Assembly (NCBI RefSeq): GCF_014196595.1
Contig: NZ_JACIEA010000001.1
Span: 1,234,546 to 1,298,545, forward strand
DNA length: 64,000 bases
Source of the DNA: Sphingorhabdus rigui
GTDB taxonomy: Bacteria; Pseudomonadota; Alphaproteobacteria; Sphingomonadales; Sphingomonadaceae
Direction: 5' to 3'
A program made the position numbers and the translations under genes. Of the stretch, positions 488-14,754 are shown in pieces (position 1 is the stretch's first letter; the number at the start of each line of letters is the position of its first letter). The notes under the pieces were generated by a model. The model was not told where the DNA came from and ran no database searches. It worked only from the letters and a program-made list of their open reading frames with translations.

Positions 488-1213
488 ATGGAACATGAAT
501 ATCTTAGACAGTTCCGCCAGCTAAAGCGTAACGAAAGTGGTGTGGCGATGGTCGAGCTTGCGATATCCCTCCCCTTCTTCATCGGCTTGCTCGTAGGCGG
601 CGTCGAAACCGCAAATTATGCGTCCGTCGTCATGCAGATAAACCAGATTGCACTGCACACCGCCGATGCTGCAGCGCGTATTGGGACAACAACGCCGTCA
701 GCGAATAAAACCATTTCGGAAACGCAAATCAACGATGTTTTTCAAGGATCTTTGCGTGAGGGCACGCGCATCAGCCTTGGTGGAAATCACGACTACACCG
801 ATCCATCATCCGGCGTGAAGTCTACGCGCGGCAATGCCCGGATCATTTTATCCAGTGTTGAAGAGGTCGCTGCATTTGACGCTTCCGCTCCGCGATACCG
901 CATCCGGTGGCAACGCTGCGCCGGCTCGGCGAGTTTTTACAAATCAAACTACGGCACCACGTCGACCGCGACAAGCGTCACCGGAGTTGGCCCTGTTGGA
1001 CAGCAAGCATCCCCTCCCCCTGGAGGTGTACTGATGTTCGTCGAACTGCAATATTATTTTAAGCCAATGATCGTAAACGGTTTTTCGAAACTGACCGATA
1101 GGACGATCAGCCAAGTCGCATCCATGGTGGTGCGCGAGAACCGCGACACCGTTGGCCCCACTGGAAGCGACGGGATATACAATAATGAGAAGGCAACCGT
1201 CTCCGCCTGTTAA
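488..1213 (+). CDS. TadE/TadG-like pilus assembly protein
   Basis: A protein of 241 residues. After a charged N-terminal cytoplasmic segment comes the TadE signature: a Gly, then VAMVELAISLPFF and a hydrophobic helix to about residue 45, followed by an Ala-rich stretch (TADAAARIG). This is the type IVb pilin-like N-terminus of TadE family proteins, which insert in the inner membrane with a large periplasmic C-terminal domain. The remaining 190 residues are polar and include two widely spaced cysteines (RCAGSA and the C-terminal Cys). The ATG is 3 nt after the stop of the preceding tadE-like gene with no clear Shine-Dalgarno, suggesting translational coupling. The tad locus continues to the left of the window; the next gene on the right is unrelated and convergent. 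Confidence 0.75.
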   Translation: MEHEYLRQFRQLKRNESGVAMVELAISLPFFIGLLVGGVETANYASVVMQINQIALHTADAAARIGTTTPSANKTISETQINDVFQGSLREGTRISLGGNHDYTDPSSGVKSTRGNARIILSSVEEVAAFDASAPRYRIRWQRCAGSASFYKSNYGTTSTATSVTGVGPVGQQASPPPGGVLMFVELQYYFKPMIVNGFSKLTDRTISQVASMVVRENRDTVGPTGSDGIYNNEKATVSAC

Positions 1214-1235
1214 AGCGGGGACGGCGGATATCCCT

Positions 1236-2585
1236 CTAAAGACCTAGCGTTTTGCGCACGCCAGCAACAATCTTGTCGGCATTGATGAGCGTCGCCTTCT
1301 CAAGATTAGCTGCATAAGGCATCGGAACGTCTTCGTTCGTGATACGCAAGACGGGAGCGTCGAGATCATCGAAGCCCTGCTCCATACATACTGCAAGGAT
1401 TTCGCTACCAACCGAACACACCGGCCAGCCTTCTTCGGCCACGACCAAACGATTGGTTTTTGCAAGGCTCGCCAGCACGGTCTGCGTATCCAGCGGACGA
1501 ATGGTGCGCAGGTCGATGACCTCTGCGCTGATGCCTTCGGCCGCTAACGTGTCAGCTGCCTCCAATGACAGCCCCACGCCAATGGAATAGCTCACGATAG
1601 TTACGTCTGTGCCTTCGCGCATGATGCGTGCCTTACCAATCGGCAGCACATGGTCGTCCCCTGCGGGAACTTCAAACGTGCGACCATAAAGCAGCTCGTT
1701 TTCGAGGAAAACAACCGGGTCCTCGCAACGGATTGCGGCTTTGAGCAAACCCTTCGCATCTGCGGCATCATAGGGTGCGATAACAATCAGACCGGGCACG
1801 CTGGCGTACCATGGCGCGTAATTTTGGCTATGCTGCGCACCGACGCGCGCTGCGGCACCGTTTGGACCACGGAACACGATGGGGCAGCGCATCTGGCCAC
1901 CCGACATGTAATTGGTCTTTGCCGCCGAGTTGATGATGTGGTCAATCGCCTGCATCGCAAAGTTAAATGTCATGAATTCGATGACGGGGCGAAGCCCGCC
2001 CATCGCGGCGCCCGTTCCGATACCTGCAAAGCCATATTCGGTAATTGGCGTATCGATAACGCGGCGAGCACCGAACTCGTCAAGCAAGCCCTGCGTCACT
2101 TTATAAGCGCCCTGATATTCGGCAACTTCCTCGCCCATGACAAATACGCGGTCATCGCGGCGCATTTCTTCAGCCATTGCGTCGCGCAAAGCTTCACGCA
2201 AGGTAACAGACTGCATCGCAGCGCCATCGGTTGTGGCGGGCGCGGCCTTGGGAGCAACGGGAGCGACCGCAACCACGACCTCAGGTGCGGGCGTCGGTGC
2301 GGCGGCGGGCGCTGGGGTGGTTTTTGCTGGAGCCGCAGCCTCGTCATCGCTTGAGATAAGCGCAATCACGGTGCCGATCTTCACCCCGTCGGTGCCCTCA
2401 GGCACGGAAATGGATGTAATCACGCCTTCATCAACGGCTTCAAACTCCATCGTTGCCTTATCGGTTTCGATCTCCGCAAGGATATCGCCAGACTTCACTC
2501 TATCGCCTTCCTTAACCAACCATCTGGCAAGCGTGCCTTCTTCCATTGTTGGCGAAAGCGCGGGCATTTTCAGTTCGATTGCCAT
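1236..2585 (-). CDS. pdhB: Pyruvate dehydrogenase E1 component, beta subunit, with N-terminal lipoyl domain
   Basis: A protein of 449 residues. Residues 1-78 form a biotinyl/lipoyl domain with the modifiable lysine in [10 protein letters not shown]; an Ala/Pro-rich flexible linker follows to about residue 120; the rest is the transketolase pyrimidine-binding and C-terminal domains of E1 beta. It pairs with the alpha subunit to decarboxylate pyruvate with thiamine diphosphate and to acetylate lipoyl groups of the complex. A lipoyl domain fused to E1 beta is typical of alphaproteobacteria such as Zymomonas and Rhizobium. I place the start at the ATG at 2585, which overlaps the pdhA stop as TGATG; a TTG one codon upstream is less likely. 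The tight overlap indicates coupled translation and equal stoichiometry. Confidence 0.95.
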
Positions 2586-3655
2586 CAATATTGCTCCACC
2601 AACACGTCAGTATAAAGTTCGGACAAATCCGGTTCAGGCGATGCTTCCGCAAAATCAGCAGATTCATTCACGATTTTCCGGATTTCCTTCTCAATGGCCT
2701 TCAACTCGTCTTCGCCCACGCCAAGGTCGGCCAGATACGCCTTGCATCCCTCGATAGGGTCGCTGTTGTCTCGTACCGACTGCACTTCATCGCGGCTTCT
2801 GTACTTCGCCGGATCGGACATGGAGTGACCGCGATAACGGTACGTCTTCATTTCCAGCAACACGGGCCCCTTACCGCTGCGGACCCAATCCAATGCAACC
2901 TCGGCAGCACCGCGCACGGCGAGAATGTCCATACCATCAACCTGAATGCCCGGAATGCGGAAGCTTTCGCCCCGGCGGTACAATTGGTCCTCGGACGACG
3001 CGCGGTTTACGCTGGTGCCCATCGCATATTGGTTATTCTCGATGACGAATATGATCGGAAGCTTCCACAATTCCGCCATGTTAAAGCTTTCGTAGACTTG
3101 TCCTTGGTTGGACGCACCGTCACCGAAATATGCGAGGCACACCCCGCCATCGTTCGAATATTTGTGACCAAACGCAAGGCCAGCCCCCAGCGAGACTTGC
3201 GCGCCCACGATGCCATGGCCGCCGTAAAATTTATGCTCGGTCGAAAACATATGCATCGACCCGCCCTTGCCCCGCGAAATGCCCGCAGCACGACCAGTCA
3301 GTTCCGCCATGATCAGATTGGGATCAATACCATATGCCAGCATATGCCCATGGTCACGATAGCCCGTGATGACGCTGTCTTTGCCCGGTGTCAGCGCGGA
3401 TTGGAGTCCAATGGCGACGGCTTCTTGGCCGATGTACAAATGGCAAAAACCACCGATCAGACCTAGGCCATATAATTGCCCCGCTTTTTCTTCAAAACGG
3501 CGGATCAGCAGCATGTCACGATAGAATTTTAAAAGTTCTTCTTTCGTGGCCTTATATGGCTTTGGTTCGGTCGGACGCTCGCGGTTGGCGCGCGCGGCGT
3601 CTTCGCTCACACTGGCCTTCTTCGAAACAGATTTTTTCGCTGGGGTGGTTGCCAA
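2585..3655 (-). CDS. pdhA: Pyruvate dehydrogenase E1 component, alpha subunit
   Basis: A protein of 356 residues of the E1 alpha family. The thiamine-diphosphate motif runs from GDGASNQG to the Asn-rich ENNQYAMGT, and [10 protein letters not shown] is the phosphorylation-loop region conserved in these enzymes. The first 30 residues are a Lys/Ala-rich extension, common in alphaproteobacterial PdhA. No ATG or GTG lies near the conserved start; translation probably begins at TTG (3655-3653), with a good AAAGGAA Shine-Dalgarno centred about 9 nt upstream. It is the first gene of the pdhAB pair. The E2/E3 genes are not in the window. Confidence 0.95.
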
Positions 3656-12375: not shown

Positions 12376-13620
12376 TCACGCCATCATCCCCGCAAATTTT
12401 TCGAACAGATAATGGCTGTCCTGCGGGCCGGGTGATGCTTCGGGGTGATATTGCACCGAAAACGCTGGCTGGTCGGCGAGCTCGAAACCGCAATTGCTGC
12501 CGTCGAACAGGCTGATATGCGTCGCCTTGGCATTGGCGGGCAAGGTATCTGCATCCACGGCAAAACCATGGTTCATACTGGTAATTTCGACTGCGCCGTC
12601 GCTCAGGCGCTTGACGGGATGGTTCGCGCCACGGTGGCCCTGATGCATCTTCTCGGTCTTCGCGCCGACCGCGAGGCCAAGCATCTGATGCCCGAGGCAA
12701 ATGCCGAACAAAGGCTTTTTGGTGTCCAGCCACTGTTTAATAACTGGCACCGCATATACGCCCGTCGCAGCAGGGTCGCCGGGGCCGTTCGACAGGAACA
12801 GACCATCGGGCGCATGCGCCATGATTTCTTCGAACGTCGCGGTTGCGCTCACGATCGTGACGTCGCAACCAACATCAACCAGATTGCGCAGGATATTGTG
12901 CTTTATCCCATAATCGATGGCGACGACGCGGGGTTTTTTATTCCCCTCCCGCAGGCGGGAGGGGTTAGGGGTGGGCTGTTCCGCAGTCGAAGCGTTCAAA
13001 GGCCCACCCCCGGCCCCTCCCGCCTGCGGGAGGGGAGAAGTGTAGCCCGAACCCAGCTTCCAAAGCCCCTGATCCCAACCATAAGTCTGCAACGTCGTTA
13101 CATCCTTGGCAAGGTCCATACCTTCCAAGCCAGCCCACGCCTTTGCGCGTGCCAACAATGCAGGCACGTCGAAATCGCCACTCGCCGAATGTGCAATCAC
13201 GGCGTTTGGCGCGCCGGCAACACGGATTAGCCGCGTCAGCGCGCGGGTATCAACGCCCGAAATGCCAATGCGGCCATTGGCCTTCATCCATGCATCAAAA
13301 TGCTGTGTGCTGCGGAAATTGGATGGGTCGGTCACATCCTGACGCACAATTGCGCCAAGGGCATGCGGGTTCAGCGCCTCAACATCCTCGGGGTTTGTGC
13401 CGACGTTACCAATATGCGGAAAGGTGAAGTTGATGATCTGCCCCGCATAAGACGGGTCGGTCATCACTTCCTGATATCCGGTCATGGCGGTGTTGAAGCA
13501 GACTTCGCCGACGGCTTGACCTTCTGCGCCAAAGCCCTTGCCCCAGATGACTTCCCCGGACGCCAGAACCAATACCCCCGTCGCTCCAGAAGGCGCGCGC
13601 GAAGAAATGGGGTCGGCCAT
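12376..13620 (-). CDS. carA: Carbamoyl-phosphate synthase small subunit, with a repeat-derived in-frame insertion
   Basis: A protein of 414 residues. The N-terminal CPSase small-subunit domain occupies about residues 1-190; the class I glutamine amidotransferase domain starts at about 229 (RVVAIDYGIKHNIL), with the nucleophile Cys in FGICLGHQM and the His/Glu pair in YHPEASPGP. It hydrolyses glutamine and delivers ammonia to CarB. Residues 196-226 (PLPQAGGAGGG through PTPNPSRLREG) have no place in the family: they are encoded by a 93-bp inverted pair of palindromic repeats sitting exactly in the interdomain linker, in frame. Both domains otherwise look intact, so the product is probably functional. 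An AGGAG Shine-Dalgarno precedes the ATG. Confidence 0.95.
   Translation of the reverse strand: MADPISSRAPSGATGVLVLASGEVIWGKGFGAEGQAVGEVCFNTAMTGYQEVMTDPSYAGQIINFTFPHIGNVGTNPEDVEALNPHALGAIVRQDVTDPSNFRSTQHFDAWMKANGRIGISGVDTRALTRLIRVAGAPNAVIAHSASGDFDVPALLARAKAWAGLEGMDLAKDVTTLQTYGWDQGLWKLGSGYTSPLPQAGGAGGGPLNASTAEQPTPNPSRLREGNKKPRVVAIDYGIKHNILRNLVDVGCDVTIVSATATFEEIMAHAPDGLFLSNGPGDPAATGVYAVPVIKQWLDTKKPLFGICLGHQMLGLAVGAKTEKMHQGHRGANHPVKRLSDGAVEITSMNHGFAVDADTLPANAKATHISLFDGSNCGFELADQPAFSVQYHPEASPGPQDSHYLFEKFAGMMA
12943..12976 (+). repeat. 34-bp palindromic repeat, copy 1 (carA left)
   Basis: The copy starts with a hairpin of arms CCCCTCCCGC and GCGGGAGGGG around AG, then TTA, then GGGGTGGGC. It is inverted relative to copy 2 and in the same orientation as copy 3. 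It lies inside the carA coding region and encodes, on the minus strand, the PTPNPSRLREG part of the insertion. Confidence 0.95.
13002..13035 (-). repeat. 34-bp palindromic repeat, copy 2 (carA right)
   Basis: Read on the minus strand it has the same hairpin arms as copy 1, with CCG instead of TTA between the hairpin and GGGGTGGGC. It is inside carA and encodes PLPQAGGAGGG on the minus strand. Confidence 0.95.
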
Positions 13621-13759: not shown

Positions 13760-13784
13760 GACCCTGAACCAAGTTCAGGGTGAC
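13760..13784. repeat. REP-like palindrome upstream of carA and yqeY
   Basis: The arms ACCCTGAAC and GTTCAGGGT flank a CAA centre, and the core extends to GAC at the right end. It lies in the 216-bp divergent region between carA (start 13620) and yqeY (start 13837), which otherwise shows no gene. The element shares TCAGGGTGAC with the hairpin at 7641-7671. Short palindromes of this CCCTGAAC...GTTCAGGG type are, from general knowledge, dispersed in sphingomonad genomes. A regulatory effect on the flanking genes is possible but not shown. Confidence 0.6.
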
Positions 13785-13836
13785 GGTTTGCCGCGGATTG
13801 GCTATCTGCGCAAAATACATATTCGGAAAGAACATT

Positions 13837-14289: not shown

Positions 14290-14305
14290 CTTGGGCAACA
14301 TAACT

Positions 14306-14339
14306 CCCCTCCCGCAGGCGGGAGGGGTTGGGGGTGGGC
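14306..14339 (+). repeat. 34-bp palindromic repeat, copy 3 (left end of DUF559 unit)
   Basis: It has the same hairpin arms as the carA copies, with TTG before the GGGGTGGGC end. It starts 16 nt after the yqeY stop, so it could also act as a hairpin in the yqeY-dnaG message. Confidence 0.95.
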
Positions 14340-14349
14340 ATCCAGTGCA

Positions 14350-14754
14350 ATGGAAAGAGCATTCAACGCCAGAGATACGCGACGCGCTCGTGAGCTGCGC
14401 AAACAGGGCACGCCCGCTGAAATAAAATTATGGCAAAGCCTGTCGAAGCGCCAACTGCACGGGTTCAAATTTAGCCGTCAAATACCGATTGGTCCTTATT
14501 TTGCGGACTTTGTATGTAGGTCTGCAAAGCTCGTGGTCGAAGTTGATGGCTCTTCCCATGACTTGCAGGTCGAGTATGATTGCGCTCGAACAGAATTAAT
14601 CGAGGCTCAGGGATATCGTGTGATCAGATTTAGTAACATGGATGTGCTGCAGAACTTGGAAGATGTGCTGGGTACAATCGGTCGGGCTTTGACGGAAGTG
14701 TCGCTGCCCACCCCTAACCCCTCCCGTCTACGGGAGGGGAATAACTTCGCATGA
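14350..14754 (+). CDS. DUF559 (Vsr-like PD-(D/E)XK) endonuclease
   Basis: A protein of 134 residues. The DUF559 core is complete: TPAEIKLWQSL, then GFKFSRQIPIGPYFADFVC and KLVVEVDGSSH, and YRVIRFSNMDVL. Asp53, Glu64 and Asp66 with His70 match the catalytic positions of very-short-patch-repair-like nucleases, so it is probably active, although substrates of DUF559 proteins are unknown. Residues 120-131 (PTPNPSRLREG) are encoded by the right flanking repeat, the same peptide as in the carA insertion. The ATG at 14350 lies 10 bp after the left repeat; the stop overlaps the dnaG start as ATGA. The position inside yqeY-dnaG and the repeat bracketing suggest a transferred unit. Confidence 0.88.
   Translation: MERAFNARDTRRARELRKQGTPAEIKLWQSLSKRQLHGFKFSRQIPIGPYFADFVCRSAKLVVEVDGSSHDLQVEYDCARTELIEAQGYRVIRFSNMDVLQNLEDVLGTIGRALTEVSLPTPNPSRLREGNNFA
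14706..14739 (-). repeat. 34-bp palindromic repeat, copy 4 (right end of DUF559 unit)
   Basis: Read on the minus strand, the arms are CCCCTCCCGT and ACGGGAGGGG around AG. The closing pair is T:A where the other three copies have C:G, a compensatory double change that keeps the stem. It ends 11 nt before the dnaG ATG. Confidence 0.95.
14731..14740 (+). promoter_or_regulatory. Repeat-derived Shine-Dalgarno of dnaG
   Basis: The end of repeat copy 4 reads CGGGAGGGGA, and its GGAG/AGGGG lies 10-15 nt before the dnaG ATG at 14751. No other purine-rich Shine-Dalgarno is present, so ribosome binding for dnaG probably depends on the repeat or on coupling to the overlapping DUF559 stop. The same bases are sequestered when the repeat hairpin forms. 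Confidence 0.5.

Follow-up and report, generated by a model that had tools for sequence, protein, structure and literature searches.

Most sampled DUF559 nuclease genes lie between inverted copies of a hairpin repeat, usually with three arms, and each group of nucleases has a repeat of its own. For both reasons, DUF559 may be the missing spreader of a known repeat class. We consider it reasonably probable that DUF559 is the cognate trans-acting partner of three-arm hairpin repeats of the TMECO/PIT type, and that gene-less repeat pairs are their dispersed, non-autonomous form. A broader reading is favoured somewhat less firmly: a second, non-homologous repeat-dispersal system would exist across bacteria, in which each DUF559 nuclease recognises a private triplex-capable repeat, spreads it as inverted pairs and acts as the missing partner of TMECO/PIT repeats in E. 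coli and elsewhere among bacteria.

The starting locus lies in the window, the whole 64,000-nt stretch of Sphingorhabdus rigui DNA that was analysed. Its DUF559 gene (14350..14754, + strand; 134 aa, I-Bth0305I/Vsr-like fold) has yqeY and dnaG as neighbours and stands between two repeats of type T1. The left repeat (14305..14340, +) and the right repeat (14705..14740, -), which is inverted and also has its tail towards the gene, are 36 nt each and 92% complementary, with 364 nt between them. An earlier note on this DNA had described two inverted hairpin repeats enclosing the gene, and these are real. Each arm alone forms a 9-bp hairpin (-11.3 and -11.4 kcal/mol, z -2.94 and -3.62). The left T1 repeat reads as a pyrimidine arm CCCCTCCCG, a loop, a purine arm CGGGAGGGG, TTG and a mirror arm GGGGTGGG towards the gene. 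The right repeat encodes the C-terminus of the nuclease, with the final residues PTPNPSRLREGNNFA coded by the repeat and a few bases beyond. Among the 50 window ORFs tested, only the DUF559 gene has a strong flanking inverted repeat. A second T1 pair of the window, gene-less and in frame, lies within the carA linker (12943-13033; left arm 12943..12976, +; right arm 13002..13033, -). The window also contains a palindrome, GACCCTGAACCAAGTTCAGGGTGACG, upstream of yqeY (13761-13786), and a similar one is present in locus L237 of genome G014.

The window ORF was assigned to DUF559 (PF04480) by profile search (E 7.7e-39, 132.4 bits against a curated cut-off of 20.6), and the 134-aa protein showed no extra Pfam domain except a weak relative of the same fold. 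Across 46 sequences, eleven alignment columns do not vary, among them E24, D53, E64, D66 and H70. The predicted structure (pLDDT 78.9) matched 3HRL (Foldseek E 2.8e-8), the I-Bth0305I catalytic domain 3R3P (E 1.1e-4, TM-score 0.77 on the target, 20% identity) and, weakly, Vsr 1CW0 (E 0.023); an EDxHD sequence profile matched the nuclease at E 0.039. Judged by this model, the I-Bth0305I homing endonuclease domain is the closest solved fold with a known role. A DUF559 gene is placed in the EDxHD homing family in the available text of PMC9403480. According to the accessible parts of PMC3943268, I-Bth0305I sits as a dimer on a target almost 60 bp long; by analogy, and as a suggestion only, such a dimer target of ~60 bp would suit two inverted repeats 50-70 bp apart. 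The Caulobacter DUF559 protein VsrA causes an SOS response in cells without a cytosine methyltransferase, and members of the family can thus act on cellular DNA; the authors of that work propose a role in mismatch repair (PMC12907096, available text).

Bracketing was scored as an inverted repeat between the upstream and downstream flanks with a score of at least 17. In a protein search, DUF559 turned up in 31 of 61 genomes (the window's own and 60 relatives). The 67 listed matches included three partial ones, which were left out, and 59 of the 64 analysed had enough flank. Fifty of these 59 genes were bracketed, compared to 0/26 outer windows, 0/26 dnaG genes, 0/27 yqeY genes and 0/1180 shuffles. 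A cross-phylum sample was taken by scanning genome contigs with protein patterns and comprised the best 80 of 563 relatives, mostly Pseudomonadota. It overlaps the first sample by at least one locus (L019 and L107 have identical repeats). Four of the 80 had too little flank, and L114, which contains a run of N, was dropped from the remaining 76. Bracketing was seen at 62 of the 75 loci and failed at 13, with 0/65 outer windows and 0/38 other ORFs in the same loci reaching the score. A laxer score of 14 admitted 4/65 cross-phylum outer windows and 8/1180 of the relatives' shuffles. The enrichment of DUF559 genes between such repeats, on which the earlier note had made its proposal depend, is thus borne out in both samples.

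Within the best 80 of 563, bracketed genes were found in Alpha- (28/32), Gamma- (12/12) and Betaproteobacteria (8/10), in Pseudomonadota of unknown class (1/1), in Rokuibacteriota (2/2), Chloroflexota (2/2) and Thermodesulfobacteriota (2/3), in Fidelibacterota, Binatota and Melainabacteria (1/1 each) and in unplaced genomes (4/6); Myxococcota (0/2), Bacteroidota (0/1) and Nitrospirota (0/1) had none. Five genes of the relatives' sample without a bracket (L026, L027, L037, L092 and L095, in G011, G013 and G036) occupy junctions common with bracketed relatives, and are possibly settled, non-mobile copies. DUF559 matches also occurred in three phage records (34-45% identity) and in 44 plasmid records, some of them chromosome-sized. 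Among eight plasmid regions examined, L230, L232, L233 and L234 had flanking inverted repeats scoring at least 17, and L227 (16), L231 (14.5), L228 (12.5) and L229 (10) fell below. On the cyanobacterial plasmids L228, L229 and L231, where brackets are weak or none, the DUF559 genes adjoin DUF1156 or BREX PglX, a possible defence context.

The flanking repeats follow a common plan. The purine arm was the inner arm in 115 of 117 hairpins near DUF559 genes of the relatives, and in 187 of 195 among the best 80 of 563. An inward mirror of this purine arm (at least 0.85) accompanied 84/115 and 139/187, respectively, compared to 13/115 and 12/187 after shuffling and 24/115 and 50/187 for an outward mirror arm. 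Triplex-type repeats (0.8) lay on both sides of 32/64 genes in the relatives and 51/80 among the best 80 of 563, and on one side only of a further 19 and 23, respectively; in control regions of 72 loci, there were three hairpins and zero triplex-type repeats. Where arms were asymmetric, a mirror copy of the purine arm was found more often than a direct copy (56 vs 31 of 81 in the relatives, 78 vs 62 of 109 among the best 80 of 563), a preference that is not exclusive.

This order of arms (pyrimidine arm, then loop, purine arm, short loop and mirror purine arm) is the plan that Holder et al. 2015 describe for intrastrand triplex motifs (PMC4666352, available text). The window repeat, GGGAGGGG TTG GGGGTGGG, has the three-arm purine-motif plan of TMECO/PIT, and the E. 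coli consensus CCCTCNCCC...GGGNGAGGG is not matched by its T1 letters CCCCTCCCG...CGGGAGGGG. We take Box C to be the same element as TMECO/PIT. PIT is the older name of the TMECO-type motif; E. coli has 23 TMECO, including five inverted pairs that always join type A with type B, so that these pairs too are inverted and have two different ends (PMC4666352, available text). Triplex formation was observed in vitro by CD and NMR, and the same text reports no support for a stable triplex in vivo. In the accessible parts of that paper, mobility-providing activities are said never to have been found around TMECO sites, whereas most DUF559 genes sampled here are bracketed by such repeats; the words endonuclease, nuclease and ycjD do not occur in its main text. 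Row 9 of its TMECO table (1,351,204-1,351,239) lies 168 bp from ycjD, the DUF559 gene of E. coli K-12 (1,351,407-1,351,760). A degenerate hairpin overlaps the 3' end of ycjD, and no triplex-type repeat was seen on its other flank, leaving repeats on one side only. A ycjD query was covered to at least 80% in 3333 of the 5426 genomes searched and had any match in 5375. Two E. coli strains (L223, L224) lack ycjD beside fabI and carry a TetR and efflux region in its place; no precise excision was seen in these two.

DUF559 clades are paired with repeat types, by association and by specificity. When eight repeat types were placed on the nuclease tree, 8 changes were needed (minimum 7, shuffled mean 30.8), and 0/200 shuffles were as low. 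That tree took 48 of the 64 genes, with types assigned by pattern and by eye: L082, L083, L091a and L097 were set by eye, L076, L081, L084 and L086, which fitted two patterns, were given a single type, and the unbracketed L037, L092 and L095 (one-strand T3 match) and L026 and L027 (one-strand T8 match) were left out. A second tree with these five rows in and the four by-eye rows out (49 rows) needed 7 changes. Both are quick trees, in which 14 of 44 and 14 of 45 inner branches are starred. G027 alone has nucleases with six repeat types (T1, T2, T3, T5, T6 and T7), and the second DUF559 gene of the window's own genome (570 kb) lies between repeats of another type, T2.

Units are largely inherited in place, and part of the agreement between type and tree therefore reflects common descent. 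Pure descent is disfavoured, because loci with a common flank hold different types and because the T4 flank of G022 sits on another contig. Eight loci share an upstream flank (68-77% at the nucleotide level between types), and their nucleases differ (46-57% identity); they comprise T6 (L025, L078), T8 (L019, L020), untyped bracketed (L018, L074) and unbracketed genes (L026, L027). Downstream of its T4 unit, G016 has a flank that in G022 lies on a contig other than that of G022's own T4 unit. T2 variants also differ at one common junction (L035/L036/L090, L087/L089 and L091a/L097; nucleases 45-49% identical).

In the window's own genome, short gene-less repeat pairs are dispersed rather than the whole unit. 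It holds ten good T1 copies and one poor match, compared to two for a backward-pattern control. These copies form five convergent pairs at ~818, 823, 1247.5, 1249 and 1549 kb, of which the third lies inside carA, the fourth encloses the DUF559 gene and four are gene-less. In G016, 44 of 57 T1 copies form 22 convergent pairs, with two outward pairs besides. The spacing of the convergent pairs falls into two classes (51-56 bp in 7, 67-70 bp in 15), and 21 of the 22 join two different end types (chance 0.48), as in E. coli. The strongest exception is the same genome, where no T1 nuclease was found despite its 57 copies; G026 (32), G035 (11), G030 (10) and G008 (7) likewise have T1 copies with no T1 nuclease found, and all five carry other DUF559 genes. 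Of 37 genus genomes, the seven that have a T1 nuclease contain 5-29 T1 copies each, and the remaining 30 contain 0-57, with at least five copies in five of them (Mann-Whitney p 3e-4).

Co-occurrence was also seen in 76 alphaproteobacterial genomes, with a strong DUF559 match taken as E below 1e-20, a cut chosen by the analyst. A T1-related repeat was present in 12/20 genomes with a strong match, 1/11 with a weak match and 0/45 with none. The resulting contrast (12/20 vs 1/56, p 5e-8) is uncorrected for kinship, as are those for at least three copies (8/20 vs 0/56) and for genomes of at least 3 Mb (10/15 vs 0/20); in some genomes with low counts, the copies next to the gene may be the only ones. 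Outward-facing pairs of the T1-related repeat, counted by eye, numbered seven in G069 and 7 of the 11 listed in G105. At L100 (G026, 674-3148), a glyS-like gene with apparently two T1-type in-frame inserts adjoins a T2 DUF559 unit; the names glyS and glyQ are our presumption from the protein letters.

The earlier note had proposed that the nuclease and its repeats move as a unit, and had asked for yqeY-dnaG junctions lacking it. Such junctions exist: of the 27 readable in the genus, 20 have no unit, five have one (G000, G014, G007, G027 and G002) and two have a lone degenerate hairpin (G008 and G025). G021 has the unit before dnaG at a contig edge, with the yqeY side cut off. Clean pairs of empty and filled sites did not emerge, and no exact junction could be drawn. 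A Sphingomonas parapaucimobilis record shows yqeY, a DUF559 gene with T1-type repeats and dnaG in the same order (73/121 identical residues to the window in the nuclease, 133/200 in the N-terminal part of DnaG). This record is probably from outside the genus, because its DnaG identity is below the 71-99% of most genus matches, which cover a longer stretch. Since the junction survey and this record both carry the unit, it looks old at yqeY-dnaG and often lost. Inheritance in place, with the unit lost repeatedly, explains much of its distribution there; a possible alternative reading is that it inserted more than once at a favoured site. Of the proposed mobility, then, the enrichment between repeats stands, and frequent hopping of the whole unit is not supported, since the unit looks mainly inherited in place. 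In dnaG of L067 (G021) and of G029 (G029:C9:40314-42152), an in-frame insert of ~0.9 kb follows residue ~61 (frames of 946 and 957 aa), and is probably an intein.

The motif ATAAC lies immediately left (14300..14304, +) and right (14741..14745, +) of the unit, and had been put forward as a 5-bp duplication. It was rejected as a target duplication and is judged a chance match: on the right side G014, the closest carrier of the unit (nuclease 98% identical), shows ATACG instead, and there is no clear enrichment over 96 bracketed units. Five-bp flanking duplications were present in 7/96 (shuffled mean 3.4, maximum 11) and 6-bp duplications in 4/96 (mean 1.0, maximum 4), the latter a weak excess. 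Among close relatives, another junction holds a T1 pair in G000, a T3 DUF559 unit in G008, nothing in G014 and G025, and other DNA in G015, G024 and G028. By eye, no duplication was found at the T1 pair of G000 that is absent from G014 and G025. The carA linker, also compared by eye, holds the T1 pair in G000, a T5-like insert in G029, a composite in G027 and another palindrome in G016, G025 and G032; from the sequences, this pattern reads as replacement, not plain insertion. In L188, L189 and L190 (G025, G032 and G016), the T1 pair is replaced by this other palindrome, around CTCGACACGAACGG. This inter-domain linker (window 12943-13033; L187-L191, L197) is a recurrent in-frame landing place of several palindromic repeats in different species.

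We hypothesize that the unit works as repeat, nuclease gene and inverted repeat, with the purine arms and tails pointing inward. In single-stranded DNA each repeat would fold to a hairpin, to which the mirror arm perhaps adds a third strand. The nuclease would cut at the repeats, possibly as a dimer that spans the two inverted copies, and host repair would then copy or re-insert the released pair. We know of no strand-transfer chemistry in a nuclease of the DUF559-type fold; the joining of the ends would therefore be left to host repair, which would produce ragged junctions without a fixed target duplication. Mobilisation by DUF559 is thus what we infer, as distinct from the pairing with repeats that is observed.

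To our knowledge, REP/RAYT is the only known system organised alike. REPtrons have an enzyme gene bracketed by repeats, short inverted pairs that are dispersed, repeats matched to the enzyme and vertical inheritance, and the DUF559 units are alike in these respects. In REP/REPIN systems with RAYT (TnpA-REP), the enzyme gene lies between inverted palindromic repeats (PMC8266576, available text); here too, inverted copies of a repeat flank it on both sides, and further copies are dispersed. The REPtron enzyme is, however, an HUH transposase, whereas that of the DUF559 unit is a Vsr-like nuclease, and the DUF559 repeats have a mirror purine arm where REPtron repeats have a GTAG tag (PMC8266576, available text). 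GTAG at the hairpin foot was absent, by eye, from the four window repeats and 12 nt on each side. A search for Y1_Tnp (PF01797) gave no match in the window's own genome and none in 9 of 11 others that have at least five repeat copies. Since both parts differ from REP/RAYT and two REPtron traits are lacking, the DUF559-repeat system is judged new in kind. MITEs are likewise short and dispersed with inverted ends, but MITEs and classical IS make a fixed-length target duplication, of which none is clear at DUF559 units, and the locus has no transposase of a known kind. The available text of the literature naming DUF559 (open-access, without bioRxiv and with few subscription papers) showed no link to repeats.

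The strongest rival is a homing-like selfish gene, which we regard as unlikely. The repeats would be older and independent, and the nuclease gene would invade repeat pairs by cutting and be copied in by repair. The fold of I-Bth0305I speaks for this, as does a genome in which one repeat pair holds the gene and four pairs of the same repeat do not. Homing into existing pairs fits poorly with the 22 readable yqeY-dnaG sites without the gene, 20 of which have no repeat and two a lone degenerate hairpin, and with nuclease types that are matched to repeat types instead of entering any pair. EDxHD homing endonucleases have a long multi-domain DNA-binding region, and their genes are often intron-borne (PMC3943268, accessible parts), whereas the window nuclease, with the same predicted catalytic fold, is a free-standing, repeat-bracketed ORF of 134 aa between yqeY and dnaG with no added DNA-binding region.

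Vsr, the very-short-patch repair endonuclease, nicks T:G mismatches. DUF559 could similarly be a repair enzyme linked to cytosine methylation, with the hairpins as mere terminators or insulators, a reading to which we give still less credence. The model is in the same fold class, with a weak match to Vsr, and Caulobacter VsrA stands behind an SOS response in cells without a cytosine methyltransferase (PMC12907096, available text). DUF559 genes have repeats on both sides, though, and plain terminators need no two-sided inner purine arm, no mirror arm and no type linked to clade. The other ORFs tested lack such brackets, and the same repeats are also dispersed as pairs, one of them inside a coding gene.

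Spread of the repeats by an unrelated enzyme (RAYT-type or another transposase), with DUF559 as a captured and kept passenger, is improbable. Some genomes rich in T1 repeats have no T1 nuclease, and 2 of 12 repeat-rich genomes carry PF01797 enzymes; the other ten, the window's own included, gave no PF01797 match, and a RAYT was rejected as the mover on this ground. A passenger would also not be expected between different repeat types in many phyla, as this family is among the best 80 of 563. Under autoregulation, the nuclease would regulate its own gene by binding the repeats on either side, and the dispersed copies would be by-products or decoys. This reading draws on repeats that abut the gene on both sides and on T1 encoding part of the protein end, but by itself leaves convergent, two-ended dispersed pairs unexplained and is very improbable.

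If DUF559 is the partner of these repeats, a family of unknown function would gain a role, an old repeat class would gain a mechanism and REP/RAYT would gain an independent counterpart with a different chemistry. In-frame repeat inserts in genes such as carA would also be explained. Should mobilisation fail, the pairing of DUF559 with its repeats would itself still call for an explanation.
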